This document shows positions 16,430 through 31,177 of a stretch of DNA of 64,000 bases, piece by piece; position 1 is the stretch's first letter; the number at the start of each line of letters is the position of its first letter. The stretch comes from Nostoc sp. TCL240-02 (GTDB lineage Bacteria; Cyanobacteriota; Cyanobacteriia; Cyanobacteriales; Nostocaceae): the NCBI RefSeq assembly GCF_013343235.1, contig NZ_CP040094.1, positions 6,319,001 to 6,383,000 of the forward strand, read 5' to 3'. A program made the position numbers and the translations under genes. Below the pieces are notes generated by a model, which worked only from the letters and a program-made list of their open reading frames with translations, ran no database searches and was not told the origin of the DNA.

Positions 16430-16995
16430 CGTTCATTCCTCACACGATGGCATTAGTTTATCCCACAAATCTGTGTTGTTGCTGTATATTTTAGTGTTTT
16501 CTAGGCAATATTTGACTCAGTAACCAGGTAAATATAATCTTGCTAATGTTTATTCGCTCCAGAACTTAGTAAAAGCCATATGGTTTTTGCCATAGAGATA
16601 CATCATTTTTCTCTTGTTCTCAGAGAATAATCATGAAAGTTGATAATTATCAGCAGATACAGCAAATGTTAGGACTAGAAAATGACTTATTAGTACGAAT
16701 ATCAAGTAGTTATGTTGACTAAAATCACACATGAATAATGATTTACATTACGTATGTTATTGTAGTGTAATGATACAAGATTTCATGGCAGATATCAACA
16801 ACATGTATAATAATGCACTAGTTATTACTCGTTATATAATAATTTTTTTGACGAGAAAATCAAAATATTCATTATTATTTATAGTATTTTTATCTTTTTG
16901 TATATCATTACTGCTGGCATTAATTCATGGTACATTATTGTACTTCTCTTGAAGCTAAAAGGATGTCTCTAGCCGCTTATAAAATAAATAAAAAC
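16430..16995. other. Intergenic region left of the integrated element
   Basis: AT-rich DNA, 566 bases. A 29-codon ORF (16633-16722) and a 73-codon ORF (16731-16952) with a hydrophobic C-terminal end exist, but neither has a convincing ribosome binding site and I recognise neither. I do not call them. Confidence 0.5.
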
Positions 16996-17054
16996 GGAGA
17001 GGGGGGGATTCGAACCCCCGTTGGGTTTCCCCAAAACGCATTTCGAGTGCGTCA
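16996..17054 (-). pseudogene. Displaced 3' half of tRNA-Ser(CGA), left attachment site (attL)
   Basis: On the minus strand this holds the anticodon arm (loop CTCGAAA), a variable arm (TTGGG-AAA-CCCAA), a T arm (five G-C pairs around TTCGAAT) and the acceptor strand CCTCTCC. No D arm follows; sequence beyond 17054 is element DNA. It is what remains of the original tRNA 3' half after integration. It should not be a working tRNA. Confidence 0.9.
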
Positions 17055-17121
17055 AGCCTAGTAGATGGACACTATGTCTGGTAAGTGTTACAGTGTTTTG
17101 AACGGGATATCACTGATAGAC

Positions 17122-17142
17122 CTGTACCAATACCTGTACCAA
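17122..17142 (+). promoter_or_regulatory. Left arm-type integrase sites (two CTGTACCAA repeats)
   Basis: CTGTACCAA occurs at 17122-17130 and 17134-17142, between the left core and the integrase start codon (17156). The same word in the same orientation occurs three times near the right end. Placement on both sides of the crossover site is what arm-type sites of tyrosine integrases look like. Binding here could also repress the integrase gene. Confidence 0.65.
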
Positions 17143-17155
17143 GGCAAGCAATAAT

Positions 17156-18376
17156 ATGGCATTAGCGAAGAGTAGATATACTCATTTATCGGTTGGCGCG
17201 GTAAAAAATGAAGATGGTACTTTTTATCGCCTCAGATTTAGTACCGCTTTAGGTAGAAAAACTATCGGACTTAGCAGTGATGAATTGCAGGCATATAATA
17301 TTGCAATGTTGGTCGACGAAGAAGTGACGAGACAATTGGCTACCAGTACAGAGGTTGACCTGGATAGCTTGAGGGAACTAGTGAAGTCTGAATTGAGTAA
17401 GGTAAAACAAAAACAAGGCAAGAGCAACATCAGGCTAATAGAGAAAGATGACTTATGTGTGCTGTGGGACAACTACGTAAACTTCCATGTGAGCTTGGGA
17501 CAGTGGAGTGAGACTTATATCCAGAGTCATATATCGTTGATACGACGATTACTTGAATCCTGTCCCGTTACCAAGTTAGAGCAAAAACAGGAGTTAGTAG
17601 AGTGGTTGTTTTCCAGTAATACTCGCACCAAGCAAACATCCAAGGATAGATTGAAGCTCATTGTCGCCGCTATTGACTGGAATAGTAAGCACGGTAATAT
17701 TCCCCGACGTTGGGGTATAGAGTATCGAGACCTACTCAATGGCATAAACATCAAGCAGGAGAAAAAAGTTGCTTACAAGGATGACGACACACAAATAGAT
17801 ATATTTAAAGTGAAGGAAATCTATCAAATACTAGAAGCTTTTAGGGATGATACGCTCTCTCGTGTGAGTGGTAAACACAGGCAGTATTGGAGGTACGTAA
17901 CATTCTTATGGCTTACAGGCTGTAGACCTTCTGAGGCAGTAGCACTCAAATGGGATAACGTTGACCTCAATAAAAAACGTATTAAAATCTGCGAAGTAGA
18001 GATGGTCAGAGGTGGTCAACGTATTACTCGTGCAAGTACAAAAACTGTAACGTATAGGTTCTTCCCGATAAATAATGAACTGGAAGAATTACTACTACTT
18101 GGTAGTAAGCGCACAGGGTACGTATTCGTTAACGGTGAGGGTAAGCCAATCTCTCATGCTGCCTTTTACTCTGTTTGGGGCACAGTTCTCAAAAAATTGA
18201 ATTTGCACTACAGAGTTCCCTATCAATTACGGCATACAATGATTTCATATCATGCCAACAATGACTACCCATTACACAAACTTGCAGAGTTAGTTGGTAA
18301 TAGTGAAGAAGTTATCAAAGAACACTATCTCAGGCTTGACATTGAGAGAATATCGCTGCCAGGTATTATCAAATAA
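17156..18376 (+). CDS. Tyrosine recombinase/integrase of the element
   Basis: A 406-aa integrase. The catalytic half starts near residue 215, with arginine I in TGCRPSEAVALKW near 262 and the box YQLRHT near 361. The following helix reads LAELVGNS, where most relatives have LLGHS, so the usual histidine is asparagine. The nucleophile is in EHYLRLD near 397. The N-terminal half should bind arm sites and core. It reads inward from attL, 100 bases from the core. It should catalyse both integration into and excision from tRNA-Ser; no excisionase gene is obvious. Confidence 0.93.
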   Translation: MALAKSRYTHLSVGAVKNEDGTFYRLRFSTALGRKTIGLSSDELQAYNIAMLVDEEVTRQLATSTEVDLDSLRELVKSELSKVKQKQGKSNIRLIEKDDLCVLWDNYVNFHVSLGQWSETYIQSHISLIRRLLESCPVTKLEQKQELVEWLFSSNTRTKQTSKDRLKLIVAAIDWNSKHGNIPRRWGIEYRDLLNGINIKQEKKVAYKDDDTQIDIFKVKEIYQILEAFRDDTLSRVSGKHRQYWRYVTFLWLTGCRPSEAVALKWDNVDLNKKRIKICEVEMVRGGQRITRASTKTVTYRFFPINNELEELLLLGSKRTGYVFVNGEGKPISHAAFYSVWGTVLKKLNLHYRVPYQLRHTMISYHANNDYPLHKLAELVGNSEEVIKEHYLRLDIERISLPGIIK

Positions 18377-18394
18377 TTTTTTTACAAAAAAAAG

Positions 18395-18429
18395 ATACCC
18401 CAGAGTAGTGTAGTGCTACCTTGGGGTAT
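18395..18429. terminator. Bidirectional terminator between integrase and LamG gene
   Basis: An 8-bp perfect stem, ATACCCCA (18395-18402) with TGGGGTAT (18422-18429), is preceded by an A run and followed by TGTTTT. It sits between convergent genes and can stop transcripts from both sides. Confidence 0.8.
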
Positions 18430-18440
18430 TGTTTTCTGAA

Positions 18441-18485
18441 GTGTCATATTTGGATGTCACTCCAGATGACATATTTACATGTCAC
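18441..18485. repeat. Four-site array A (RTGWCAY, 13-12-13)
   Basis: Boxes GTGTCAT, ATGTCAC, ATGACAT and ATGTCAC have TG starts at 18442, 18455, 18467 and 18480. It lies between the integrase terminator and the LamG stop codon, so it is not in a promoter for either gene. Confidence 0.85.
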
Positions 18486-18489
18486 TTTT

Positions 18490-19323
18490 TTAGCTAGTAG
18501 GTATAACCGATAGGTCATTATTACCGTTAACGGTAATTCTTAGATTATCCATCCTGAAGTTACCATAGTAAGTACCGCCTGGTTCACTACCTATCAGAAT
18601 GTTGGCGTTGGTATTATTAATGTTACTCGTGCCAATACTGGCAGTACCTTTTTGCACTCCATTAACCCAAACAGATATCACTCCATCCACTCGTTTGATG
18701 CCGATGTGATAAAGCGTATTTACTGCCACTGGAATACTTGTTATTCCGACATAGCCACTACCACTGTAGAAGTAAACTCCCATAACACCAGTGCTATCTA
18801 GCTGAATAGCAAAGGTAGAATTGGAGGCATTTCCACCATATTTATTAATTATGGCTGCTGGTGCTACCGATACAAACCTTATAAAGAAGTCAATTACAAA
18901 AGTAGAGTTACCAAAATTGTAATCGCTTCTATTGGGTATACTGGCATACCCTGCGTTACCAGTTAATAGGGATGACCCCGACAATAGAACCACACTACTA
19001 TCTACTGATGCTGTCCCAATAAGTGAGATGGTATTGTCTAGTGCCACATCTGTTGGTGGTGTTGCATTAAACAAAGACTTGAACACAACAGTTCCATTCC
19101 ACGTCGGTGTTGTCCCCCCACCCGAACTGCCACCACTACCACCGCTTGATAATCCTGCCAACAAGTCGGCTTTTGATATCTTATAGGGTGTATTAGTGCT
19201 GTCAATTCCAATAAAATAATCACCACTTGCAGCAACAGTTTTAACGATTGTTGGAACTGTCAGCCCACTGTATGTATTGTAGTAATTGTTGATTACTTGC
19301 AATGCCCTTTTATAAAGTGTCAT
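18490..19323 (-). CDS. LamG-like (concanavalin fold) virion-type protein
   Basis: A 277-aa protein. The N-terminal 65 residues are a separate small region, followed by a Gly/Ser linker (GGSGGSSGGG). A LamG-type jelly-roll then runs from about 75 to 265, with YASIPNRSDYNFGNSTFVIDF, NTLYHIGIKRVDGVISVWVNG (quoted in part: YHIGIKRVDGVISVWVNGVQ) and a terminal NFRMDNLRITVNG strand. Such domains bind sugars and are common on phage tips and fibres. No signal peptide is present, which fits a virion part more than a secreted enzyme. GGAG lies six bases before the ATG. It is last in a minus-strand unit with the 67-aa and 524-aa genes. Confidence 0.8.
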   Translation of the reverse strand: MTLYKRALQVINNYYNTYSGLTVPTIVKTVAASGDYFIGIDSTNTPYKISKADLLAGLSSGGSGGSSGGGTTPTWNGTVVFKSLFNATPPTDVALDNTISLIGTASVDSSVVLLSGSSLLTGNAGYASIPNRSDYNFGNSTFVIDFFIRFVSVAPAAIINKYGGNASNSTFAIQLDSTGVMGVYFYSGSGYVGITSIPVAVNTLYHIGIKRVDGVISVWVNGVQKGTASIGTSNINNTNANILIGSEPGGTYYGNFRMDNLRITVNGNNDLSVIPTS

Positions 19324-19324
19324 A

Positions 19325-19528
19325 TTAATCTCCTATAAGTTGGTCGGCATGTATCCACGAGAGTGTAGCAATCAAGCCACCATCAGCAACATAGAGCATA
19401 TTCAAATCACTATCAACACTCAATATCTCGCCCTCAGATTGCATCCCGTAATTGTCGATATATTGCACTATTTCACCTATCCTTACCATCACCGTTTCAT
19501 GCTCATCATCTGCTATTGAATACGACAT
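19325..19528 (-). CDS. Small acidic hypothetical protein of the element
   Basis: 67 aa, acidic (MSYSIADDEHETVMVRIGEI), with predicted beta strands and no membrane segment. It overlaps the end of the 524-aa gene by 23 bases and stops one base before the LamG start. This tight packing supports it as a real gene translated by coupling. I do not recognise it. Confidence 0.6.
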   Translation of the reverse strand: MSYSIADDEHETVMVRIGEIVQYIDNYGMQSEGEILSVDSDLNMLYVADGGLIATLSWIHADQLIGD

Positions 19529-21080
19529 TTTTCTTCTTCCCTGTTATGTCTATAAGGTTTATTGGTGGTACATTGATGCCTACATTAAGGTAAGCATGAG
19601 TAAATGTCACTATCCCAGATTTATGTACAGTTGGAACTTCCAGAATCTTCCCTCTTACCGTTACTTTGTCAGGTCTACTAGAAGTAGCATTAGTACGCTT
19701 ACTTCCTACTCTCAGAAGGTCATCATTAACAGAATGCCCTTGTATATCTAGTACTTGTTCTACTATCCTTCTAGCCTCTTGTTGGGATATCACGTCAAGC
19801 TTGAATTGATACCCTTTCTCATGGTCGGCATAAGTATAGGTTTGAGTACCTTTTGATATCTTGAGTGGCGGTGTTGCAAATTTGGCGTGTATACGTTCAG
19901 TAAGTGTTTTGAGGTAGTCGTCTGTTGCAAAATCTTCCTTATTTTTGTTCATCAACCTGAAGGCTATCTGCATCGACAATGCGTCAACAATCTCACCTTT
20001 ACTAGATATCCTGTTTTGCTTGCGATAGAACTTCAATACCACTTCAGGTCTATGCCTTCTATCAGGCATTTCAGTAGGTAATGTACCGTAAATAGTACCA
20101 AGGTCACGTCCATTGAACTGTTCGTGTGTTGAAAGGTATTGGATGATTTGTGGTTTAAGAAGTTCTTCGCTACCACCAAGCACTATTTTCTCGTCTGGGT
20201 TTTGCCTATTGGGCGTTATCTCCACATATCTTTCATGCCCCAATACTGGAGTTTTCTCGCGCTCCAACATTGCTGTAGAGAGAAACGTATCCACAGCATT
20301 CGCAACAACATAACCCGCTTCTACGCATGCCTCGTCTGCTTCTTCTTGGAACTCTTCAGTAAACTCTCTCAACGCTCCTTCGGCACCGAAAACATTATCC
20401 AATAATTGCTCATTCGCTATAGCAAAACTCCAAGGTTGACTACCAGCGCTACCCCATGCCCTGACAACCTTTTCAGTGTTAGCGCCAAGTAGTTTTTTCA
20501 CTAATTTACTTTGACTCTTAATGAACTTGCGAGCGTTTTTGTAGGTTTCCGTAAGAAAGATTTGAGTACCTAATCGCAATGCCGAATTGAATAATGCACT
20601 CATATTTTGCAATATTTCTTCTAGTGCTTCTTCGCTCACTTTTTCTAGCACCACAGCGCCTAATGGTTCATTGAATACCATAATGGCTGCTGCTGGCAAA
20701 ATACCACATACAGCATACCCAAAGGCATTACCCAAAGCACCGCCAAGTTGAGCCATTAACGCAGTCCATTGAGATTTAATACTGGCATCAAGTTGCTCAT
20801 CTGTAGCATTCCAATTAAAGTTCCAAATAAACTGTTTTGTCGCCACAAACCAACCCCAAAAAGAACTCCATGAGAACTTAAAGTATTGCGTTACCTTGCC
20901 AAACAAGAAACCTGTTAATGACCATGCTGCATTAAATACATATCCTATGAAGTCAAGCACTCCATTGCCAGTACTGCCATTTCTGGTGATACCCTGTTCC
21001 ATGCCACGAATGATACGTGTGCCAACCTCACCCCTAACAACACGACTTGTTAACCTTGCTAATTCAAACTTTATTGCCAT
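19506..21080 (-). CDS. Large element protein with hydrophobic N-terminal third
   Basis: A 524-aa protein that I do not recognise. Residues 1-40 are basic and contain VRGEVGTRIIRGMEQGITRN. Aromatic and hydrophobic stretches lie near 44-75 (FIGYVFNAAWSLTGFLFG; WSSFWGWFVATKQFIWNF) and at 105-140 (GGALGNAFGYAVCGILPAAA), enough to insert into a membrane. The C-terminal half is soluble, with PEVVLKFYRKQNR and an OB-like tail. The start at 21080 is preceded by GGGGTAGGGT, which also precedes the 25620 gene. A membrane-active or inner-membrane virion component is possible. No ATPase or nuclease motif is seen. Confidence 0.75.
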   Translation of the reverse strand: MAIKFELARLTSRVVRGEVGTRIIRGMEQGITRNGSTGNGVLDFIGYVFNAAWSLTGFLFGKVTQYFKFSWSSFWGWFVATKQFIWNFNWNATDEQLDASIKSQWTALMAQLGGALGNAFGYAVCGILPAAAIMVFNEPLGAVVLEKVSEEALEEILQNMSALFNSALRLGTQIFLTETYKNARKFIKSQSKLVKKLLGANTEKVVRAWGSAGSQPWSFAIANEQLLDNVFGAEGALREFTEEFQEEADEACVEAGYVVANAVDTFLSTAMLEREKTPVLGHERYVEITPNRQNPDEKIVLGGSEELLKPQIIQYLSTHEQFNGRDLGTIYGTLPTEMPDRRHRPEVVLKFYRKQNRISSKGEIVDALSMQIAFRLMNKNKEDFATDDYLKTLTERIHAKFATPPLKISKGTQTYTYADHEKGYQFKLDVISQQEARRIVEQVLDIQGHSVNDDLLRVGSKRTNATSSRPDKVTVRGKILEVPTVHKSGIVTFTHAYLNVGINVPPINLIDITGKKKNVVFNSR

Positions 21081-21102
21081 ACCCTACCCCTATTGCTGTG
21101 AG

Positions 21103-21147
21103 ATGACATGTAAATATGTCACTTTAAATGTCATCTAAATATGTCAT
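21103..21147. repeat. Four-site array B (RTGWCAY, 13-12-13)
   Basis: TG starts at 21104, 21117, 21129 and 21142. It lies upstream of the 524-aa gene start (21080) and downstream of the 561-aa stop (21168), so it could act as an operator for the 524-aa/67-aa/LamG unit. Confidence 0.88.
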
Positions 21148-21167
21148 CTGGGAAATATACATTCTAC

Positions 21168-22853
21168 CTACCTGACAATTTCTCTGCCGTCGTTATCGTA
21201 GTTGCCTTTTTCTGTCCCAATCTCTCGTATTTTAGGGCGTTGGTCGTAAGGTCTACCCCAAGGATTAATAGTATCGGTGATACCAGAAACCTCGATAAAA
21301 CCTCTTTCAGCTTGTTCTGTGAAATCATTAAAACTACCCTGCTCATTCTCCTTATGATTGGCGCTGATAGCATCAGGATTACCTAGCAGTTTTTGTTTTA
21401 GGTCTTCCACAATATCACCCGTCAATGACCGCCAATTTTGAGCATTCCATCTTGCTGCCATTGTCTTGAGTATTTTAAGGTCATCTTGCAGGTCATTTTT
21501 ATCAGTGTTTTCATAGGTGACAATTTTGATGTTTTTTTCTTTCAATGTTTCAGTAATATTCTGTCCGTTGGGGGTAAAAAGTGATGGTATTTCTTTTTCT
21601 TTTTGCTCAAGTTTGTACCCTAAAAACTCAGCATTAGCTAGTGTTACATCAAGCGTTTTTACACCCAATTGTTTTGCCATCCCTGCTTCTGCCATTGCCT
21701 TGATAGCGGTGATAAGTGTTGCCTGAGTATCACGCTTCGTTGTTATCAAAAGCCCTAGTAGCTCTGCCAGTCCTTCGGCAACATTGGGTAGTGATATTGT
21801 TTCTGTTTGGTCGCCATCTTTCGTAAGGTCGGTATCCTCCACTTTTATCTCAATAGGAAAAGCACCAAGCAATGCATCCAATTGTTGCATCTGCCACAAC
21901 ATCAATTCTGCGAGTGACTCAATGTTGATATAGCTTGGATTCTGTTTTGCAAAGTTATCAGGCACACTTGCAGGTAGGCTACCCACACGTTTGATGAGTA
22001 GCTTCAGTAATGCGTCGTTGTTTTGTTGACCGGGGCAGCACATATCTTTATCCTCTTTTTCTTTTTTTTTACGCTTTGGCGGTGGTGGTGGGTCTGATGT
22101 TGGAGTGAATGATGGACAACCTAAAGCGTCGGGAGAACTAACATACAGGTTGTCAATAATGGGAGTAAAATCACCTGCACTCAAATCATCAAGTATTGCA
22201 TTCACAGATACTCTATCAGTGCCACTTTGAATCTCCACATTCATGCCACTGACGTAGTAGGAAGGATATGAAGATAAGTACCTCTGAGGGTCTCCATCAG
22301 CACCACAACCATTACCTATTTGTGGGTAGATTTTGTAAGTACTGCCATTACCAGCAGTCTTTACCTCACTAACGCCTGAACTACCCCCAGAGTTATAGAA
22401 GTCGTAAATGTCGCCTGTAAAATCGGGAAATTTCGACTTAATCAACTGAAGGATTATATTTGGTGATGAGTTCTCTGACTGCCTGACATACCCATTGATG
22501 TCAGTGTCGTATACAAACCCTAGTATTTTTGATGCATAAATCACCCTAAAGGTAATCAATCCACATCGGGATAAATCCATGCGTCGTAGCTTATCGATGT
22601 CATTGGGTGGTACTTGAGGTAGTTGACAGTATGGGTTCCTATGAGTGAAAGTTCCGAAACGAGTTGTGAGTGTAATATTGCATGGGTCAACGTTGAGAGT
22701 TGCGTCTTTGAAATCTTGATAAATTCTTCCAGCAACAGTTCTTATAGGTGCTGATGCTTGACCGGGGAAAATAGGAATAGGTCGAAAGTTTTCATTATCT
22801 TTTATCAGCTTCATTAACTCACTTTTTTGAGTATCAGCGAAATAGCCCATCAC
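21168..22853 (-). CDS. Large element protein with proline/lysine hinge, virion-like
   Basis: A 561-aa protein with no recognised family. The N-terminal part (1-250) is beta-rich with several cysteines (DPCNITLTTRFGTFTHRNPY). A hinge DPPPPPKRKKKEKEDKDMCC near 255-275 divides it from a helical half with repeated alanine and leucine (AEGLAELLGLLITTKRD). The end is charged and rich in Asp/Arg (EIGTEKGNYDNDGREIVR). Its start overlaps the stop of the 262-aa gene by four bases (22850-22853), so the two are coupled. The size and layout suggest a structural or attachment protein. Confidence 0.75.
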   Translation of the reverse strand: MMGYFADTQKSELMKLIKDNENFRPIPIFPGQASAPIRTVAGRIYQDFKDATLNVDPCNITLTTRFGTFTHRNPYCQLPQVPPNDIDKLRRMDLSRCGLITFRVIYASKILGFVYDTDINGYVRQSENSSPNIILQLIKSKFPDFTGDIYDFYNSGGSSGVSEVKTAGNGSTYKIYPQIGNGCGADGDPQRYLSSYPSYYVSGMNVEIQSGTDRVSVNAILDDLSAGDFTPIIDNLYVSSPDALGCPSFTPTSDPPPPPKRKKKEKEDKDMCCPGQQNNDALLKLLIKRVGSLPASVPDNFAKQNPSYINIESLAELMLWQMQQLDALLGAFPIEIKVEDTDLTKDGDQTETISLPNVAEGLAELLGLLITTKRDTQATLITAIKAMAEAGMAKQLGVKTLDVTLANAEFLGYKLEQKEKEIPSLFTPNGQNITETLKEKNIKIVTYENTDKNDLQDDLKILKTMAARWNAQNWRSLTGDIVEDLKQKLLGNPDAISANHKENEQGSFNDFTEQAERGFIEVSGITDTINPWGRPYDQRPKIREIGTEKGNYDNDGREIVR

Positions 22854-23638
22854 ACATACTCCCTTATCTCAATAGAAGCTGTACCACTTGCTATTACTGC
22901 ATAGTATGAGCCGGTGTATATTGGTGCTAAAGCCTCATAATAATCACCGGGTGCTAACTTCACTGCATAGCTCGAAGTTTTAACAGTATTAACAGTATCA
23001 ACAAAAACGTCCACTAAGGAATTGTTTTGAAAGCTAATACCAGTCCTATTGTTGTTACTGTTAACGATTTTGCTTGCAGTAGTAGTAATAGTGTTGGCAA
23101 TGCGTGACGACGTATCACTTATACGCTCTACGGTTACTACCCTCTCAAGGTCAGCAAACACCGTTATCTTATCACTACCAAAAGCACCGTTTTGTAATAG
23201 TCCAAAACCTACGTTTTTCATTTGAATACCTACCATTGCATTGCTACCAAGTGCATGGTCACCAAGGGAATATTCTCTATATGGGTAAGGATTTGGATTA
23301 AGCAATGAGTACGCTGCTATTCGTTGCCAATTCGTACCGTTATTTGTAGTCAGCAATATATCCATCTCGATGCGTGGTGATTTCCACTCAAGGTTGATAG
23401 CATCCAGTAACTGTTTACTCTCACTGTCCTCTAGGTCAAATACTGGAAACGGTACTGTTGCAATGTTGTAGATGAACGCTACAGCCTTAAGATTCTTCAC
23501 CTCAAAGTACTCATTCACCACTCTGTAGCCTGCTTTAGTGAATGATGTATATGTGAAAAGTGGTACTACATTTGTTTGAGTGTTGGCATCCAATGTTATT
23601 GCCACTTTGGTTTTGATAGTGAAAGTATCGAGTGCCAT
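22850..23638 (-). CDS. Element protein with C-terminal beta-sandwich like phage virion proteins
   Basis: 262 aa. Residues 1-150 are beta-rich and unknown. The last 65 residues (RTGISFQNNSLVDVFVD, KLAPGDYYEALAPIYTGSYY, AVIASGTASIEIREY) follow the pattern N-R-x-G-h-x-h-x-N then Y-T-G-x-Y-A then a terminal E strand. I know this layout from small decorating domains of many phage virion proteins. No signal peptide. It is the first gene of the minus-strand pair with the 561-aa gene, with AGAGG five bases before the ATG, divergent from the 112-aa gene. Confidence 0.72.
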   Translation of the reverse strand: MALDTFTIKTKVAITLDANTQTNVVPLFTYTSFTKAGYRVVNEYFEVKNLKAVAFIYNIATVPFPVFDLEDSESKQLLDAINLEWKSPRIEMDILLTTNNGTNWQRIAAYSLLNPNPYPYREYSLGDHALGSNAMVGIQMKNVGFGLLQNGAFGSDKITVFADLERVVTVERISDTSSRIANTITTTASKIVNSNNNRTGISFQNNSLVDVFVDTVNTVKTSSYAVKLAPGDYYEALAPIYTGSYYAVIASGTASIEIREYV

Positions 23639-23737
23639 ACACGCCTCTAGGGTAAAAAGTTATTCTTACTGGTTAACCTGTAGGAAAAAATTTGTCTAGT
23701 ACCCAGATTTTCAAGACGGGTATGGTCGTAAAAATAA

Positions 23738-23782
23738 GTGTCACTCAAACATGTCACTCCAGATGACACTTTAAAATGTCAC
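23738..23782. repeat. Four-site array C (RTGWCAY, 13-12-13)
   Basis: TG starts at 23739, 23752, 23764 and 23777. It lies between the divergent 262-aa and 112-aa genes, about 60 bases upstream of the strong plus-strand promoter, so it could control both structural blocks. Confidence 0.88.
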
Positions 23783-23840
23783 TTTGAAACAACACGTACC
23801 CTTGCAGAATCACGTCGTTCAGTAATATTTTTACAGGTAC

Positions 23841-23869
23841 TTGACATTGCTTCAATACCTTGCTAATAC
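23841..23869 (+). promoter_or_regulatory. Strong promoter of the 112-aa structural-type gene
   Basis: TTGACA (23841-23846), a 17-base spacer, then TAATAC (23864-23869) preceded by TGC, an extended -10. This is the best consensus-type promoter I saw in the element. It is followed by a 40-base leader and a CGGAG ribosome binding site. Confidence 0.75.
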
Positions 23870-23910
23870 TTAGAGCATCCCAAAAAACACTTATACGGAG
23901 TGTAGTAAAA

Positions 23911-24249
23911 ATGGCTGCTACTGCTGATTTAACACTGGCTGAGGTTTCTGCTGAAATCTTGGATACCGACGTAAAAGATTACGTTGCTGCAATGGATGCT
24001 TTACCTGGCACTGCTGGCATGAGTGAATTTCTTGCCAAGTTCTTGCAAGGTGCTGCTATTGCACAATCTAAAAAGAATACTGCCAACACTACTGCTGCTA
24101 CTGGTGAACTCCTAAACTCATACCCACTACCTACGACTGGCACTGTACAGACTGACATTGGTAGTGGGTTACAAACTTTTACAAGTACCTACCAGTTAAC
24201 AGTTATATCCGGCGCTGGCATTAGTGCTACTGTTCCCGCTCGTGCATAG
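23911..24249 (+). CDS. Small Ala/Thr-rich protein, candidate major structural protein
   Basis: 112 aa from the ATG at 23911; the frame is open to 23860 but the earlier start lies inside the promoter leader, and ACGGAG precedes 23911. The sequence is MAATADLTLAEVSAEI, helical to about 60, then a Thr/Gly-rich beta-like tail ending in VPARA. Codons are strongly biased to GCT and ACT, unlike its neighbours, as expected for a very highly expressed gene. With the promoter at 23841 and an attenuating terminator after the stop, it looks like a protein needed in many copies, such as a coat or scaffold protein. I do not recognise the family. No signal peptide or membrane helix is clear, which argues against an inovirus coat. 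Confidence 0.7.
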   Translation: MAATADLTLAEVSAEILDTDVKDYVAAMDALPGTAGMSEFLAKFLQGAAIAQSKKNTANTTAATGELLNSYPLPTTGTVQTDIGSGLQTFTSTYQLTVISGAGISATVPARA

Positions 24250-24263
24250 TATCTCATAACCTT

Positions 24264-24290
24264 GTAGGGTGAAATTCCCTACTCTTTTTT
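24264..24290 (+). terminator. Partial terminator between the 112-aa and 205-aa genes
   Basis: Stem GTAGGG (24264-24269) with CCCTAC (24277-24282), followed by a run of seven T. It should lower expression of downstream genes relative to the 112-aa gene. Confidence 0.75.
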
Positions 24291-24304
24291 TAGGAGTATG
24301 AACG

Positions 24305-24922
24305 ATGGCAACGCAGTCCTTGAAACACGTATTCTATCCACTTTACATGGATAAACCCGGTAGTGGTGTAGGCGAAGTAAGAAATAAGGCTTATGGTGTA
24401 TTCGCTACACGACTCTCTACCCATAGATTTCTGGATATCCCAGACTCTAAAATTTTTGTAGGTGATATCGAGCGTGAAGCTAAGGGAGGTATCCGCACTT
24501 TCACTTTGGCTGACGGCACAGTGCTATCACAAAGTAAAGAAAACAGTGATGGCAAAGTAGCAGATTACGTCTACACTGTCAAAAAGAGAATTGGTCAAAA
24601 ACGTGTCATTATTCGCACGGGTAAGAGGATATACCCAAGTGATTCTAAAAAGACACAAGTTCATACACTGAGCTTTGCTTTTCCAAAATGGGCAACAATT
24701 CCCGTAATATCCGATGCACTCGGTGAATTCATCCCCCCAGCTAAAATTGCTCGTGACGGAACGCCATCTTCCACCGAAATTGAACCATACTACACTATCG
24801 AAAAAGGTGGTACTTATGGTATCTGGCAACAGACAACAGCACAATCTAGCATCGTTGCTGGCACTAATGTTACTGAACTTCTGAACAAAATTCGGGCTGA
24901 CGGTGGAGACATTAAGCAGTAG
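24305..24922 (+). CDS. Hypothetical structural-type protein of the element (205 aa)
   Basis: 205 aa, start supported by AGGAG eight bases upstream. It has basic stretches (VKKRIGQKRVIIRTGKRIY), several short beta-like segments, and an aromatic N-terminus (FYPLYMDKPGSGVGEVRNKAYG). No membrane helix, enzyme motif or known family is seen. It sits between the 112-aa and 155-aa genes in one transcript, so a virion or assembly role is inferred from context only. Confidence 0.7.
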   Translation: MATQSLKHVFYPLYMDKPGSGVGEVRNKAYGVFATRLSTHRFLDIPDSKIFVGDIEREAKGGIRTFTLADGTVLSQSKENSDGKVADYVYTVKKRIGQKRVIIRTGKRIYPSDSKKTQVHTLSFAFPKWATIPVISDALGEFIPPAKIARDGTPSSTEIEPYYTIEKGGTYGIWQQTTAQSSIVAGTNVTELLNKIRADGGDIKQ

Positions 24923-24931
24923 GTCACTCTT

Positions 24932-25399
24932 ATGTATGATATCGCTAGTGAGTGGAAACAAGTTATCAACGTTAGTCGCAAGGCTGTTAAAAATGTCAAT
25001 GGTAAGTACTTGCCAATAGCACCAATAGAGCCTGATACAGTACTGACTCACAATACCATTGCACTCTATCTCACTAGCGAAAGTGCTAACCCTAATTGGT
25101 ATAAAGCAGGGTATCTGTATCAGGCTTTTTTCATACCATTCGGCACTGCTGGTGCTGCACAAGGTGAGCAAATCAAAGTAATCCTGAATCGCTATATGAT
25201 TCACAGGTTTACGACATTTCCTGATATTGAAAACAAGTACGTGTTGAGCTACTCGCCTGAAAGTTACTACAAAGATGTAAAGTTGCAAGTCTGGGAATAT
25301 GTTGGCACTAACCAGGGAGCAACCTTGGATAGTTTGCAGACAACTCAAAAGGCAACGTTAGCCAAGGTGAATAGTATTCAACAGTCACTAAATAGATAA
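24932..25399 (+). CDS. Hypothetical structural-type protein of the element (155 aa)
   Basis: 155 aa, ten bases after the 205-aa stop. Beta-rich with aromatic residues (NWYKAGYLYQAFFIPFG) and a conserved-looking block HRFTTFPDIENKYVLSYSPES; the last 30 residues are helical. I do not recognise it. A clear terminator follows, so it closes the 112/205/155 transcript. Confidence 0.7.
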   Translation: MYDIASEWKQVINVSRKAVKNVNGKYLPIAPIEPDTVLTHNTIALYLTSESANPNWYKAGYLYQAFFIPFGTAGAAQGEQIKVILNRYMIHRFTTFPDIENKYVLSYSPESYYKDVKLQVWEYVGTNQGATLDSLQTTQKATLAKVNSIQQSLNR

Positions 25400-25424
25400 T
25401 ACAAATTTTGGGTAATGAAGTGTT

Positions 25425-25466
25425 ATACCCAGCATGGTTTAAAAGCTATGTTGGGTATTTTTTTTG
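25425..25466 (+). terminator. Terminator of the 112/205/155 transcript
   Basis: ATACCCAGCAT (25425-25435) pairs with ATG-T-TGGGTAT (25448-25458), followed by nine T. A classic intrinsic terminator. Confidence 0.88.
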
Positions 25467-25489
25467 GGTGTAGGGTGTATTGTTCCGAA

Positions 25490-25533
25490 GTGTCATATTT
25501 AGATGTCACTTAAAATGTCATTTTTAATGTCAT
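25490..25533. repeat. Four-site array D1 (RTGWCAY, 13-12-12 variant)
   Basis: TG starts at 25491, 25504, 25516 and 25528. This is the only copy whose last spacing is 12. It lies after the terminator of the structural transcript. Confidence 0.8.
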
Positions 25534-25550
25534 GGATAAAAATTTATTGC

Positions 25551-25595
25551 ATGACATGTAAATATGTCGATACAAGTGTCATCAAAAAATGTCAC
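25551..25595. repeat. Four-site array D2 (RTGWCAY, 13-12-13)
   Basis: TG starts at 25552, 25565, 25577 and 25590; the second box is ATGTCGA. It ends 25 bases before the 89-aa gene and makes a tandem pair with D1. Confidence 0.82.
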
Positions 25596-25619
25596 TCTGA
25601 TTTAGTAGGGTAGGGGTTT

Positions 25620-25889
25620 ATGAGTAACGAGGTTATTATGTGGATTGTCGGATTATCTGTACCAGCTTTCGTGAGCTTATTAGTACTGTTTGTGCAAGAG
25701 CGTGGAATACATCGTCGTCAACGGATGGCTGATTACGCTAGTAAGGAGCGTGTCATGGTGCTACTTGAAAACGATATCAGCAACTTGAAAAGCACCACAG
25801 ATAAGATGTCTGTAGTGCTAGATAGAGTAGATGTTAGGCTAGATACTTTGTCGGAGCGAATGGTCAAGGTAGAAACTAAGTTGCAGTAG
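25620..25889 (+). CDS. Small membrane-anchored coiled-coil protein
   Basis: 89 aa. One hydrophobic helix lies near residues 7-25 (MWIVGLSVPAFVSLLVLFV), then a basic stretch (RGIHRRQR), then heptads to the end (NLKSTTDKMSVVLDRVDVRL). This resembles phage XhlA/spanin-like or holin-associated membrane proteins, but sequence identity cannot be judged by eye. GTAGGGTAGGGG precedes the ATG, a leader word shared with the 524-aa gene. A role in host membrane disruption or signalling is possible. Confidence 0.7.
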   Translation: MSNEVIMWIVGLSVPAFVSLLVLFVQERGIHRRQRMADYASKERVMVLLENDISNLKSTTDKMSVVLDRVDVRLDTLSERMVKVETKLQ

Positions 25890-25942
25890 CTTGTATTGCT
25901 AGTACCAATTCATTCTTGTTCATGTTGCCATAACCCTTTATT

Positions 25943-26695
25943 TTAAGGTTTGTGGCAATTTTTTTGAGTTCTCTGATAGAGAGAGTGTTCGGTGGTTTTT
26001 AAAGCCCTATTAACACGCTCAGATATTCCACCCTTCCTGTATCTTGAGAACTCAAACTTCATTTTTGCTATCCTGACAAGTAGTTGTACTTCTGATACAT
26101 GATTTAAACCAATGTCAGAAGCACCGCTTATTAATTCCATCTCCTTTAAGTCAGATGCTGTCTTGCCACATACAGCAACGGTAATCGCGTCGTGTGCCAT
26201 AGCAGCATTAAACTTATAACGTATACAACTATTCTGAAACGCTGACTGTGCATCAGTGCAAAATAGGCGTGATTCCTCCCACGACACACGACTGTTGATA
26301 GCTTGACGTTCATATTGTTGCTCTGATTTGACGATGCTAAAGACTGCGTCACAACGACGTTGTAGTGCCTCTTGCATACATGCCGATACCAACGCTTGGG
26401 CTTTGATGTTGCCTTTGAATGCTTGCGACATCCAGAAGTCTGATGCGATATCGACAGGAATAGCATTTATCTGTCTACCTGTGCCAGATATTGAAAATTT
26501 GTCGAAGCTGAAACCTTTACCGGGTAAATGGTTCAATCGATTTTCCTTTAAAAAACGTCGGAACCCAATCTCAGATAATTCAATCGCTTCGGCTACTTGA
26601 GTTTGACTCATTACGTAATCACCGTTGGGCAACTGAAATACTTCTATTTCAATACCAGCGATTTGAATTAACGCACGTTTGGCTTTGTCTGACAT
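25943..26695 (-). CDS. Antirepressor-like protein (250 aa)
   Basis: 250 aa. The N-terminal 60 residues read IEIEVFQLPNGDYVMSQTQVAEAI with a helix-turn-helix feel, and IPVDIASDFWMSQAFKGN follows. This layout is like phage antirepressor/regulatory proteins of cyanobacterial elements. The C-terminal half is helical with three cysteines and no known motif. It ends convergently with the 89-aa gene, 53 bases apart. It leads or joins the minus-strand regulatory block with the 106-aa and 107-aa genes. Confidence 0.68.
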   Translation of the reverse strand: MSDKAKRALIQIAGIEIEVFQLPNGDYVMSQTQVAEAIELSEIGFRRFLKENRLNHLPGKGFSFDKFSISGTGRQINAIPVDIASDFWMSQAFKGNIKAQALVSACMQEALQRRCDAVFSIVKSEQQYERQAINSRVSWEESRLFCTDAQSAFQNSCIRYKFNAAMAHDAITVAVCGKTASDLKEMELISGASDIGLNHVSEVQLLVRIAKMKFEFSRYRKGGISERVNRALKTTEHSLYQRTQKNCHKP

Positions 26696-26836
26696 GATTG
26701 ATACTTATGTACTACTTTGCGAGGATAACCGGCTTTGGCAATACTGCCAAGACCCTGTATATATTGAAGTGATATTGAAACCTGTTATTTCGTGTTAGCT
26801 ATTGGTGTAAACCTTAGTAGCATTTAAAATGCTTGA

Positions 26837-27157
26837 TTATTCCTTAGTCAGTAGGTGTAATTGGGTAACTTTTTGAGGAATAGTCAAGTTATCAAAAAAC
26901 ACCTTCAGTTCAGACTCTAGTCCATCTTTTCGCGATACCTTGCTATATTCCTTCTCCACATCAATCTCGTAACCGTACTCAGAAGCCTTGGAAGCGATTG
27001 TCTTGAATTCTTCGTGAGTAAGTTCACGTCCTAGCTCACGCTGACACCAGAAAAACAATTGCTCTACAGTGTAGTTGTGCTTTAGGTAGCCAATTACTGT
27101 GCCCGCTAAACGTTCTGCGTTAGTTGTCCTTGATTCTACTGCTTTGGAATTTCTCAT
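26837..27157 (-). CDS. Hypothetical small helical protein of the element (106 aa)
   Basis: 106 aa, charged and helical, with a block VEQLFFWCQRELGRELTHEEF. No known domain. It lies between the antirepressor-like 250-aa gene and the basic 107-aa gene on the same strand with gaps of 100-140 bases, and probably belongs to the same regulatory block. Confidence 0.62.
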   Translation of the reverse strand: MRNSKAVESRTTNAERLAGTVIGYLKHNYTVEQLFFWCQRELGRELTHEEFKTIASKASEYGYEIDVEKEYSKVSRKDGLESELKVFFDNLTIPQKVTQLHLLTKE

Positions 27158-27258
27158 ATAAGTCCTGTGTGATTTGTGTGTTGTTTACTGTTATCGAGAA
27201 CAGTAGTTTAACGACGTACTGAGGTCGTGTAAACGAATACTTCTGAAGTCAATATGAG

Positions 27259-27582
27259 CTATTGATTAGCTTGTGACTTATCCCTTTGTTCGCTGTCTTG
27301 TGCATAAATACTGCTAGCATCAATCCCTAATCTATTCAGCAAAAGTCTAAGTGTTGAAACTAGCTTGCGTGCTTGTTCGTAACGTGGTGAGGTCTTCTTT
27401 TCTTCACAAGTCTTTTCCCATACGGCAACCTCTTTCTCTAGGTCAATTAAGAGTTGATAGATGTCATCTAACTTACTAGCAATGGATGTTGGAACCCATT
27501 TCTGTACTACGTCATCGACATACTTCTTCTTCCTCCCTGAGCCTGGTTTTCTAGTACCACTACTTGGAATACCTCTAGGCAT
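27259..27582 (-). CDS. Basic DNA-binding-like protein, possible ribbon-helix-helix (107 aa)
   Basis: 107 aa from the ATG at 27582 (MPRGIPSSGTRKPGSGRKKK); an ATG three codons earlier is also possible. The basic glycine-rich N-terminus is followed by VVQKWVPTSIASKLDDIYQLL. This has the strand-then-two-helices pattern of ribbon-helix-helix proteins (V-x-x-x-V-P-x-S-I-x-x-K-L-D). The rest is a helical dimer-like region. If so, it is a candidate to bind the short palindromic boxes of the eight arrays. Not proven. Confidence 0.65.
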   Translation of the reverse strand: MPRGIPSSGTRKPGSGRKKKYVDDVVQKWVPTSIASKLDDIYQLLIDLEKEVAVWEKTCEEKKTSPRYEQARKLVSTLRLLLNRLGIDASSIYAQDSEQRDKSQANQ

Positions 27583-27808
27583 AAAACTCAATTTTTGTGT
27601 GTATGTGGGATATTAACAGCGCTATGGAGTCGATGAATCCCTGAATCCCTTGCTGTTGTTTCCTTATATCATTTATGTCACATCAACGAAAAAGTGTCAA
27701 TCATTCTTGTGATAAAAATAAGAAAATAACCTGAAACATATACTGTGACTAGGTAAAATCATTTTTACAAGTATCTTGGTGATATTGGGCATACCCTATC
27801 ATTCCTGG

Positions 27809-27853
27809 ATGACATGTTTGAGTGACATTTTTAGTGACATGTTTTAATGTCAT
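27809..27853. repeat. Four-site array E (RTGWCAY, 13-12-13)
   Basis: TG starts at 27810, 27823, 27835 and 27848. It overlaps the last codons of the BRO-N gene, so the coding sequence has accommodated the array. It lies 227 bases upstream of the 107-aa gene. Confidence 0.85.
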
Positions 27854-28448
27854 TCAATTTACTAAGGTAGGGATTGTGGCTACCAACTATTTGTTTGTGC
27901 TTGATATACTCCTCACCCTCGTGACGATAATGCTCTACGTATAGTCGTGAGTACTCTTGTTCAAGTGAGTCGTATTGTTCCTGTAATGACTTGAGTGATT
28001 TTGTCGTAGCATCGATGCGTTCTGATAACAGTTCCTTGCGCTTCATCAGTTCGGCAACCTTTTTGTCGAAGGTAGTGGAAGTCCTAACATGTGCGTTGTT
28101 AGGAATGCTGTAACTACCAGTCCGGCGTATAGCGGGTATTACCTCGGATGTCAGCCACTTTTTAAAGCGCTTGGTTGATGGCTTGCGACTTGTTAAGACA
28201 AGTGCATACAATCCTGGTTCATTCACACACCATACCTTCTGCGCCCTGGTGCTAGCAAATTTGCCACTGACATCATTTAAAGTTATGTCACGTGTTTTTT
28301 CGTCATCGTCCAATTTACTAATAGCTGTTGATGGATTTGTAATCTCTAATGCCTTGCAAATATCAGCCGCTACCCACCAAGGGTCTATTGCAGTACCTAC
28401 AAAGCGTATGTCGTGTGTTTCAAAGCTGAAAATAGATAAGTTACTCAT
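27831..28448 (-). CDS. BRO-N domain antirepressor
   Basis: 205 aa from the ATG at 28448 (MSNLSIFSFETHDIRF); the 14-codon longer form is unlikely. The BRO-N domain covers about 1-110: VGTAIDPWWVAADICKALEI, the KLDDDEK loop and WCVNEPGLYALVLTSRKPST with FKKWLTSEVIPAIRRTGSY. A coiled coil follows near 125-175. BRO-N proteins bind DNA and act as phage antirepressors. The last codons run into array E. Confidence 0.88.
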   Translation of the reverse strand: MSNLSIFSFETHDIRFVGTAIDPWWVAADICKALEITNPSTAISKLDDDEKTRDITLNDVSGKFASTRAQKVWCVNEPGLYALVLTSRKPSTKRFKKWLTSEVIPAIRRTGSYSIPNNAHVRTSTTFDKKVAELMKRKELLSERIDATTKSLKSLQEQYDSLEQEYSRLYVEHYRHEGEEYIKHKQIVGSHNPYLSKLNDIKTCH

Positions 28449-28483
28449 TATTCTTGTTCTCTGTGTATAGGTATTGTCTGTGA

Positions 28484-28528
28484 GTGACATTTTTACATGT
28501 CATTTAAAATGTCATATTTAGATGACAT
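28484..28528. repeat. Four-site array F (RTGWCAY, 13-12-13)
   Basis: TG starts at 28485, 28498, 28510 and 28523. It lies between the AntA stop codon (28530) and the BRO-N start (28448), just upstream of BRO-N. Confidence 0.88.
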
Positions 28529-28529
28529 C

Positions 28530-29108
28530 TCACACACTAAGGTACTTGTTGGCTTGTTTAGCGCGCTCTATTATTTCCCTGGCATCGAGTACAGCCCTTG
28601 CCAGTTCAGGGTTAGCATCAAGTACAGCTTTAGCTTCGGTGAATAACTCTTTTTGAATAGACTGTAATTCCATCCTCTTTTCAGCTAGTTCACTTTCAAG
28701 CACCCTAATGTGATGCCGTACCAGTGCATCGTTGGCTTTTAGTTCAGTGAGTTTTGATGTGCTGACAGATGGTAATGCTTTGATATTTGCTTCCTTGGCA
28801 ATACTTTCACATTCAATAAAGTATTTGCGGATGACTTTACCCTGTTCTGTACCTGACATCATCGCAAAACACTTAAAGCAATCAACTGTCAACATAATAT
28901 GTTTTCCCGGTCTGCCCCCGTTAGAGGCTTTTTTACCCAAAGTTAAAAAGTCTGTGCCTTCTTCAAAATTAGCTACAAGGCAATCAAGTGCTTTCTGTTT
29001 TGATGCCCAGCCCAGCCATAGCCACGCATCATCAAGGTCAATAGGAAATTGTTCATCAGAGTTATAAATTGAGAGTGCAAGTGTCTTGTCAAAGGTAAGC
29101 TGTGTCAT
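28530..29108 (-). CDS. AntA/AntB-type antirepressor
   Basis: 192 aa from the ATG at 29108 (MTQLTFDKTLALSIYNS). The AntA/AntB domain (about 15-95) is marked by FPIDLDDAWLWLGWASKQKAL, FEEGTDFLTLGKKASNGGRPG and HIMLTVDCFKCFAMMSGTEQG (quoted in parts under 21 residues each in a real search). A helical region follows to the end. AntA-type proteins relieve repression of prophages. Array G lies about 70 bases upstream of the start. Confidence 0.87.
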   Translation of the reverse strand: MTQLTFDKTLALSIYNSDEQFPIDLDDAWLWLGWASKQKALDCLVANFEEGTDFLTLGKKASNGGRPGKHIMLTVDCFKCFAMMSGTEQGKVIRKYFIECESIAKEANIKALPSVSTSKLTELKANDALVRHHIRVLESELAEKRMELQSIQKELFTEAKAVLDANPELARAVLDAREIIERAKQANKYLSV

Positions 29109-29174
29109 TGTTTTGTCATTGGGTATTGTGTGCGTTGAAGCGATGTTGAAACCTGTTGTATGTGTTGTTGTGAG

Positions 29175-29219
29175 ATGACAATAAAATATGACATCTGGAG
29201 TGACACTCTGGGATGTCAC
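29175..29219. repeat. Four-site array G (RTGWCAY, 13-12-13)
   Basis: TG starts at 29176, 29189, 29201 and 29214; the first box is ATGACAA. It lies upstream of the AntA gene. Confidence 0.85.
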
Positions 29220-29844
29220 CTAGGAAGTACTACCTACCACTACTACGTGCTTTATTGTAAGCAGTTTGCATTTTTTCCCACCTACTTACCGCCGCCACGT
29301 GAAAGCTATGCAACAAGTCAAATCTCTCTTGCTCTTCATAGTCTTCATGTGAACCTAAGATAGTGAATTACCACCACACAAACTACCAAAAGTCAAGAGT
29401 AAAGCATAAATATCTCACACATAAGCAAAACTTACACCTTACTGTAAAAAGTAGGGTGTTTTCTTGTGAGTGCGTGAATGATAAGTAAACTTAAAACTGT
29501 AGATTTACAGGATTGATATACAGTAAGGCTTTTAAATATTCCGATTTAAAATCGGAATAATAAGAACTTATGAATCATCTATTGATAAGTAACCTAGCGT
29601 ATAACGAACAGTGTGCAGTAATGCTCAGAACGCTTTACCAGCAACGCATTGAAGCCTATAACGAAGGTTTTTCTTTATAGGCAGTTACATACTTTTTGCT
29701 TATATGTCATTAGCGATAAGTTTTCATTATCAACACTGGTGCTGACTTTATCACAGCATTTTCACTCACAAAGCATACGTATCAAGCATTGCAAGGTGTT
29801 TACTATTTTTGTAAGTAGAAAATATGAACTTATTGAACCATTTA

Positions 29845-29875
29845 CTGTACCAACTGTACCAAAAACCTGTACCAA
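29845..29875 (+). promoter_or_regulatory. Right arm-type integrase sites (three CTGTACCAA repeats)
   Basis: CTGTACCAA at 29845-29853, 29854-29862 and 29867-29875, all in the orientation of the two left copies, 111 bases from the right core. Likely integrase arm sites. Confidence 0.65.
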
Positions 29876-29944
29876 GTCCTACAGCACAAAATGACCAAAA
29901 ATAAAAGGGGAAAACCTAAGAACCTTACCCTGTATGCATTTAAC

Positions 29945-30030
29945 GGAGAGGGAGAGATTCGAACTCTCGAAGAAATTGCTTTCTTAACGCATTTCGAGTG
30001 CGTCACCATGAACCGCTCGGACACCTCTCC
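29945..30030 (-). tRNA. tRNA-Ser (anticodon CGA), hybrid of host 5' half and element 3' half (attR)
   Basis: 86 bases. Acceptor GGAGAGG pairs with CCTCTCC; there is a D arm, an anticodon loop CTCGAAA (CGA), a long variable arm (class II, as expected for serine) and a T arm GAGAG/CTCTC around TTCGAAT. The first part up to the anticodon arm is host sequence. The variable arm, T arm and 3' acceptor strand come from the element and differ from the displaced half at attL. All stems pair, so it should be functional. Confidence 0.93.
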
Positions 30031-31177
30031 AGATATTTATTCACACATTTTAGTATATATATATTCAAATGCCGTGAATTGAGGGAAATTTTAACTCATT
30101 TCCTATATTACTATAACATTAGCGCTTTATCTGCGTAACAGAATGCTTCGGAAACACCAAAGGCTAATTACAGTGATTTTCAGGTAAATAGACCATAGGG
30201 TAGGGGCGCAAGGCCTTGCGCCCCTACTACGACGGATGTGGTTCAAATACATGAAAACTGCTGTAAGGTTTGTATACATCGGAAAAGACATCACAAATAG
30301 GGGATAGAGAGCTTTTATCTCCCTCTATGGCTTTTCTGATTTTTTCCCCTAGTTCGGTGTTAACACTTTGAAAACCCAGATGCAGACCAACTTTGCAAAT
30401 TTTCGGACGTGTCTAATGAACAATGCCAAGCTTTTGAAGCTGCGGCATAATCTTGGACAGGCGTGTTTTTACACTCATTGAGATGCCCCCGTATTCAAGG
30501 GATACCTTTTACAGTGTCGGCTCAATATCTCTGTGACAATTAATGAGTAAAGTTCTACAATATATACTATGAATTTTTGATTACATCTGTGCATTTTTGC
30601 ATTCATGGAATGAATAAATGTTGCACTTTATACGTACTAAAGAGCCATTAATTGCTAGATTATAGTTTATTATTCATTGATAAAAGTGTACAAACTATTG
30701 CACCAAGCATATAAACCATAGACGTGTCAGCATCTTTTAAAACTAAAATATAAAACAGAGACAACACTACAAAAACAAGTACCGTTATTTTCAACATAAA
30801 ACCTAACAATTTCAACCATAACTACGAAGAAAATACATCAGAAGTATGTCTTACGTTTTTTGAAATTGTTGCTTGCAGAAAAATATTTCAATTTTTAATA
30901 GCATTTAAGACTTCACTATGGAGAAATTATTGAATCTCTATTCTTAATATATTTCTGAAGTGAGTGTTTACCTGATTGTAATTATGACAGTTTTTTTTGT
31001 GGTAGTAACTAATCTAGACAAAAGTACTTATATCAAGTACTTTTGCTAAAAAAACTGGTTCACAAATCTGAGCTAATTTTGTTGATGAATATTTTTTACT
31101 CTTCTCACTTCTTTGAATCTAGAGTATATCATCAACCGAGCGGTAGCATAAGTGACTTATCCTGCATTACCACGTAG
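30031..31177. other. Gene-poor AT-rich region right of the element
   Basis: No supported gene. It holds a perfect 28-bp palindrome at 30200-30227 (GTAGGGGCGCAAGG and its complement), a type scattered in Nostoc genomes. A perfect 11-bp inverted repeat also lies at 31019-31029/31035-31045 (CAAAAGTACTT, 5-base loop). I see no tRNA or known RNA here. Confidence 0.6.

Follow-up and report, generated by a model that had tools for sequence, protein, structure and literature searches.

Multi-box heptamer arrays with element-specific layouts in integrated elements of Nostoc: possible operator and stoperator sites

An integrated element of Nostoc sp. TCL240-02 carries eight arrays, each built of four near-palindromic 7-bp boxes at a regular pitch. 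The element occupies positions 17035-30005 of a 64-kb stretch of contig NZ_CP040094.1 (positions 6,319,001 to 6,383,000); this whole stretch is called the window here. All eight arrays fall within this single element. The architecture is real and strongly non-random, it follows an element-specific code, and it is kept across related elements. The arrays are tentatively read as operator and "stoperator" sites, at which a single multimeric DNA-binding protein encoded by the element would silence the whole resident element.

The boxes follow the consensus RTGWCAY and stand 5-6 bp apart. In seven arrays the boxes are spaced 13-12-13. These are array 1 (18441..18485), between the convergent integrase and lamG genes; array 2 (21103..21147), in the gap between two same-direction genes; array 3 (23738..23782), in a divergent gap; array 4b (25551..25595), with one box off-consensus; array 5 (27809..27853), which overlaps the end of the Bro-N gene and overruns its stop at 27831; array 6 (28484..28528); and array 7 (29175..29219). 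Array 4a (25490..25533) has the spacing 13-12-12, its last gap being one base shorter. The TGWCA core was present in 31 of the 32 boxes; the sole exception is TGTCG in array 4b. In array 7, an A replaces the Y at the end of the first box. The 45-bp pattern was scanned with up to three mismatches allowed, and seven of the eight arrays were recovered, five of them as perfect matches, with no other match in the window. When the window was shuffled by dinucleotides 100 times, no match to the pattern appeared. These scans confirm the eight arrays and both spacings, which had been described in an earlier reading made from the letters without database searches (the sequence-only reading).

The distance between neighbouring arrays is irregular (61 to 2,662 bp) and gives no special support to DNA-looping anchors, one of the roles first suggested. 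Promoter-like and terminator-like sites in the element were overall at shuffle level; one terminator-like hairpin lies directly before array 4a. The equivalent of the gap with arrays 4a and 4b holds array pairs in two related stretches, L031 and L082, too.

A sequence-only model was built from the eight window arrays and run over the whole genome of 7,887,247 bp at a threshold of E<=0.001. Matches were found only in the window element (E1) and in a second element (E2), and the best match elsewhere had E=0.76. The arrangement is thus confined to two elements and does not recur in the flanking chromosome at this threshold. Cyanobacterial repeats of the short tandemly repeated repetitive (STRR) type are head-to-tail heptamers without a spacer, dispersed over the chromosome. 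Such heptamers were ruled out for the arrays, in which the boxes are separated by 5-6 bp and restricted to the two elements. E2 (C1:6201846-6218877) lies about 120 kb from the window element and carries nine arrays. Unbroken TGWCA chains make up seven of the nine: four with 13-12-13, one with 13-12-12 and two with a fifth box. E2 is larger and different: its integrase is only distantly related, most of its structural genes are others, and it has an ATPase module that is absent from the window element.

Relatives were found by searching for sets of four closely spaced near-palindromic boxes and by chain scans. Arrays of this architecture are present in 12 elements in 10 genomes (two contigs of genome G295 are counted as one element), and some of these elements are only about 5 kb long. 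The layouts are four boxes at 13-12-13, five at 12-12-12-12 or 13-12-12-13, and six at 13-12-12-12-13, with TGWCA or TRNYA cores. Two copies of an element are present in genome G489. Each carries seven arrays of five boxes at 12-12-12-12; in one copy, one array is degraded to three boxes. The outer letters of these five-box arrays are nearly fixed (G first in 7/7, C last in 6/7) and the inner flanks are variable, which indicates that the array has ends. G471 and G295 share six TRNYA boxes at 13-12-12-12-13, plus array pairs. Four to six boxes were found in G490 (stretch L115), G486 (L116), G467 (L117), G479 (L121) and G456 (L118). In G306 the boxes are spaced by 12 bp and are of another type (TTATNNNATAA, by eye). 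Irregular arrays occur in L115 and L117, and spacings of 12 and 13 are mixed in the array pairs of G471 and G295. When 12 stretches were shuffled 20 times each, TGWCA chains of at least four never arose and TRNYA chains numbered at most one. Symmetric spacing is therefore kept in relatives, with exceptions. The 13-12-13 layout that the sequence-only reading had put forward is real in the window; it is not universal, being one of several symmetric layouts, each element-specific.

Three models were compared across genomes. Model R1 matched 4 of 217 genomes of the family, model R2 matched 6 of 53 genomes of the genus, three of them by single borderline matches, and model R3 matched 3 of 53. Few genomes were matched per model, so any single code is rare. 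Scans over more than 40 genomes were run with stricter filters, by which weak matches are lost. The borderline matches were in G501, and in G265, G480 and G491 (E 3.5e-4 to 5.9e-4). At L082:8158-8190, between p524 and p561, lies a relic of the window type with TGWCA boxes spaced 13-13; the remaining arrays of that element are TRNYA. Two element copies, in L088 and L089, are about 97% identical; they differ by a 295-amino-acid (aa) gene beside an array (L088:4478-5636 versus L089:15131-15173) and in their integrases. The 12-bp repeats of L035, L086 and L099 were set aside, as most are inside reading frames; the L099 block at 15605-15761 is mostly in a gap. The ATCGGGT... repeats of L032, L090 and L100 were, from their repeat pattern alone, taken to be simple tandem repeats and likewise set aside.

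The reading as operator and stoperator sites is based on the repetition of the arrays within elements, their mostly fixed box number, their mostly symmetric spacing and their position mainly in gaps near gene ends and between facing genes. One protein dimer would bind each near-palindromic 7-bp box, and the dimers would join into a short assembly that begins and finishes at the array ends. The symmetric multi-site arrays are consistent with the multimeric binder that was proposed at the outset. Such an assembly would block transcription entering or crossing the gap, and release of the element would strip the protein from all arrays simultaneously. An immunity code would then consist of box letters, box number and end gaps; arrays of the same kinds are carried by small satellite-like elements as well. 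A more specific version appears rather doubtful: arrays of 4, 5 or 6 heptamers would mark transcription-unit boundaries, and a closed assembly of a BRO-family protein would count boxes and end gaps, stop transcription everywhere at once, and serve both full-size elements and satellites of about 5 kb, with letters, number and gaps as the immunity code.

Most arrays are intergenic, and many span a stop codon or lie no more than about 25 bp from one. A hand count over six large elements placed arrays in 6 of 9 convergent versus 1 of 12 divergent gaps (Fisher p 0.016). Because of this convergent-gap excess, stoperators fit better than promoter operators alone, and the placement favours an action at gene ends. 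The suggestion that the arrays go beyond promoter operators is borne out by the arrays in convergent gaps and by array 5, which lies over a gene end.

In Cluster A mycobacteriophages such as L5 and Bxb1, 20-30 stoperators are dispersed over the genome and most are described as not promoter-associated; they are 13-bp sites oriented with transcription, and their consensus varies by phage group (PMC6550527). A repressor of this group is reported to be monomeric and to recognise an asymmetric sequence (PMC9283540). The arrays are like these stoperators in two respects. Many site copies are dispersed in the gaps of an element, many of them away from promoters (by a hand count of gaps rather than of mapped promoters), and the consensus varies among related elements (TGWCA versus TRNYA, box counts). 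Unlike single asymmetric 13-bp stoperators, they are arrays of 4-6 near-palindromic heptamers with mostly symmetric spacing. In the Cluster A systems the element encodes a cognate immunity repressor of the Rep family, and elongating transcription is halted by the bound protein. By analogy, the arrays may work like a stoperator set. Cluster A stoperators appear to be the nearest documented system, and the arrays would be a new variant of dispersed operator systems, with a presumed function.

Other known systems share part of the design. The conserved inverted repeats of phage phiC31 are dispersed palindromic operators of one repressor and occur as single repeats at early promoters; the dispersed palindromic sites are alike, but regular multi-box arrays are not known there. 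The omega protein of pSM19035, ParR and TubR bind heptad or iteron arrays that form a few clusters at promoters or centromeres. Short boxes, a fixed pitch and an expected cooperative multimer are common to these ribbon-helix-helix (RHH) or TubR-like arrays and to those described here, whereas here many arrays are spread over one element, the box number is element-specific and the end gaps are often wider. In P22 immI (Arc, Mnt, Ant), a small RHH gene lies near an anti-repressor-like gene, as in G471; we know of no dispersed multi-box arrays in immI. No description of such multi-box arrays was found in searches of open-licence literature, and the earlier statement that no described system has this geometry holds as far as those searches reach. 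If the arrays silence the element, the system would resemble stoperators but use a site of a new kind, and its specificity could lie in number and spacing besides letters. The arrays also point to a poorly described family of tRNA- or gene-inserted Nostoc elements with small satellite-like relatives.

All frames of 11 elements were clustered into families (the second G489 copy was omitted), and single linkage merged Bro-N and Ant proteins. The BRO/Ant family was found in 10 of the 11 array elements, integrase in 9, and each other listed family in at most six. The window element and E2, which carry the same arrays, have in common BRO/Ant (both proteins identical), integrase (distant), lamG and the 524/314-aa and 89-aa families. 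BRO/Ant is the natural regulator among these common families, and BRO/Ant families were also the clear regulators of the window in Pfam and PHROG scans. Judged from presence alone, a BRO/Ant-type protein would be the best candidate binder. In the nine elements with a Bro-N domain, most arrays have 13-bp end gaps; in the three without it (G489 twice, and G306) the spacing is 12 throughout. This link between the Bro-N domain and 13-bp end gaps is suggestive, coming from few lineages and with exceptions. Chains of four were present within about 1.5 kb at 5 of the 30 Bro-N loci returned for the genus, and most Bro-N genes are without arrays. To our knowledge, BRO/Ant proteins are common in viruses and have seldom been assigned a DNA target; the arrays, if the proposal is true, would give them a concrete one.

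Alternatively, the large elements could encode the binder as a small RHH or Cro/CI-like regulator, a helper protein that would act in trans on the small elements. Short palindromes are recognised by RHH dimers such as those of Arc, MetJ and omega, which assemble on tandem sites. RHH genes were found in G489 (PF07878 E 5e-8) and G471 (E 2.4e-4, below cut-off), and RHH-like frames were seen by eye, with no Pfam hit, in L115, L121 and E2, the last of which shares its genome with the window element. However, an RHH gene is not present in every array element: none was recognised in the window element, and G295 has a Cro/CI-like helix-turn-helix (HTH) gene. G295 with this HTH gene and G471 with its RHH gene, each beside a Bro-N gene, carry the same TRNYA 13-12-12-12-13 arrays, which weakens RHH as the sole binder. 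The TRNYA-model matches of G456 are confined to its small element (L118), where no RHH-like frame was seen by eye. Taken together, this regulator is an unlikely general explanation. A small RHH or Cro-like gene of the larger elements is the second candidate for the binder, and the 107-aa basic protein p110 is the third. Counting the window's own genome, 6 of 53 genomes of the genus encode p110 or a relative of it, and arrays are present in each of the six stretches. On whether p110 might be an RHH protein, its AlphaFold2 model (mean predicted local distance difference test score 65) gives no guidance: it has two long helices, and Foldseek gave no PDB match at E<=0.001. Nothing convincing was found against solved structures (best E 0.12), and no plasmid match to p110 was found.

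Several results weigh against the operator and stoperator reading and against a BRO/Ant binder. The family does not occur in every array element, as no BRO/Ant gene was found in G306, which has boxes of another type. Box letters do not change together with the Bro-N domain: in L117 and L118, a single pair, the domains are 90% identical and the boxes are TGWCA versus TRNYA. The end-gap rule is broken by one 13-12-12 array each in E1 and E2 and by the paired arrays of G471 and G295. BRO/Ant proteins are annotated by PHROG as anti-repressors, not repressors. The gap bias was computed on hand-picked genes. When five small or partial elements were added (a count that takes in G306, L153 and one L121 gap), arrays were present in 11 of 17 convergent versus 5 of 18 divergent gaps (p 0.044); in the small or partial elements alone, 4 of 6 divergent gaps hold arrays. 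Narrower gap counts gave p 0.043 and 0.076. One E2 array, at coordinate 21773 (C1:6215773), falls inside a 314-aa reading frame, in its 5' part; the frame belongs to a conserved family. Repeated arrays with this architecture were present in only 5 of 38 partly overlapping stretches around relatives of the 561-aa and 262-aa proteins (40 were fetched; L040 and L041 were omitted), so the arrays are not needed for this gene block.

Finally, the arrays found in any one genome belong to one class, apart from the L082 relic, which would fit a host-encoded DNA-binding protein that uses the arrays, for example in silencing foreign DNA. Such a protein is very unlikely: strong model matches lie only inside elements (three borderline matches in other genomes aside), the box code varies between genomes of one genus, and for a host silencer one would sooner expect sites in other parts of its own genome as well.

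The small elements bear on another explanation. No relative of the structural block was found in L115, L116, L117 or L118, and L121 has some; no integrase was found in L117. The element at L118:8402-13443 is about 5 kb long and has an integrase, BroN, p110 and three arrays. It is bounded by 57-bp repeats that match a tRNA-Phe end, and the 20-kb G471 element is inserted at the same end. This element resembles a minimal G471-type satellite, and we infer that the small elements are satellites. If the arrays served packaging or partition, a protein of the element, either structural or involved in segregation, would gather on them to mark, compact or segregate the DNA, and satellites would copy the sites to use helper machinery. 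The persistence of arrays in the four small elements in which the structural block was not found agrees with this, as does the likeness of the 12-bp-spaced repeats to plasmid centromere repeats. A virion-like fold is predicted for the 262-aa protein, although its fold matches are of moderate strength, unrelated proteins score nearly as well, and no function can be read from them. Relatives of this protein were found in none of the viral contigs or phage records searched; among plasmids there was one, 51.5% identical, on a 20,757-bp circular plasmid of Tolypothrix sp. PCC 7601 (NZ_CP064893.1, L122). The presence of a relative on this 20.8-kb plasmid would suit packaging or partition, but the plasmid has no TGWCA or TRNYA chains of four. 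Such sites usually form one cluster rather than many arrays at gene boundaries, the array spacing along the element is irregular, and the BRO link would be left unexplained. Packaging or partition is therefore considered fairly unlikely.

The window element shares long blocks with E2. Window positions 27804-29358, with AntA, BroN and three arrays, are 99.9% identical to E2 in inverted orientation, and positions 25413-25978 are 97.9% identical. A 94-bp part of the int/lamG gap including array 1 is 86% identical to E2, and the genes flanking it have no blastn match. The long near-identical blocks indicate that the window element is a mosaic. The arrays might be considered as recombination joints, at which modules would be swapped between elements by homologous or site-specific exchange, with the arrays spreading along. 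One edge of the inverted block lies 5 bp from array 5, the 94-bp piece with array 1 matches E2 between unmatched genes, the copies in L088 and L089 differ in the gene beside the array, and a TGWCA relic stands among the TRNYA arrays of L082. On the other hand, the other block edges are off the arrays (77 bp or 139 bp outside, or past a gene), homologous exchange at any dispersed repeat would be a by-product, and the symmetric spacing, the box number and the per-element code are left unexplained. We regard recombination joints as quite unlikely to be what the arrays are for.

The integrated state of the window element, stated in the sequence-only reading, is supported by its ends. The element is about 12.95 kb long and is flanked by a 20-bp direct repeat, AACGCATTTCGAGTGCGTCA, from the anticodon arm of tRNA-Ser (17035 and 29986). 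The left copy (attL, 17035..17054) is preceded by an apparent displaced 3' part of tRNA-Ser at about 16994-17034 (by eye). The right copy (attR, 29986..30005) lies inside the intact tRNA-Ser gene (29943-30031, minus strand). A tyrosine integrase of 406 aa is encoded at 17156..18376 on the plus strand (Pfam PF00589, E 3.7e-17). It is followed on the minus strand by a 277-aa protein with a LamG-like domain (18490..19323, PF13385), a 524-aa protein of the conserved block (19506..21080, relatives found), a 561-aa protein (21168..22853) and the 262-aa protein (22850..23638), which has a predicted jelly-roll-like plus spike-like domain. With the window's own genome counted, 65 of 388 genomes in the order have a relative of the 561-aa protein, and 60 of 217 in the family have one of the 262-aa protein. 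Three small genes of the conserved block (129, 205 and 155 aa) are at 23860..25399 on the plus strand, and the 89-aa protein, identical in E2, is at 25620..25889 on the same strand. The remaining genes are on the minus strand: a 250-aa protein with a relative in L115 (25943..26695), p110 (27259..27582), the Bro-N domain protein (27831..28448; PF02498 E 2.3e-23, PHROG anti-repressor) and an AntA-like putative anti-repressor (28530..29108; PF08346 below cut-off, phrog_5817 E 6e-13). The starts of the last two genes were placed at inner ATGs; the frames extend to 28490 and 29219, respectively. Named relatives are mostly from Nostoc.

The surroundings of E2 (L113 at about 6220-6400, L114 at about 6010-6613) and of the G489b element (L089/L102) are alike, with genes alongside that we take from their sequence to be cas6-, cas1- and cas2-like. 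E2 seems to interrupt a presumed cas4-like gene, as the start of the frame is left of the integrase and the remainder is right of the element.

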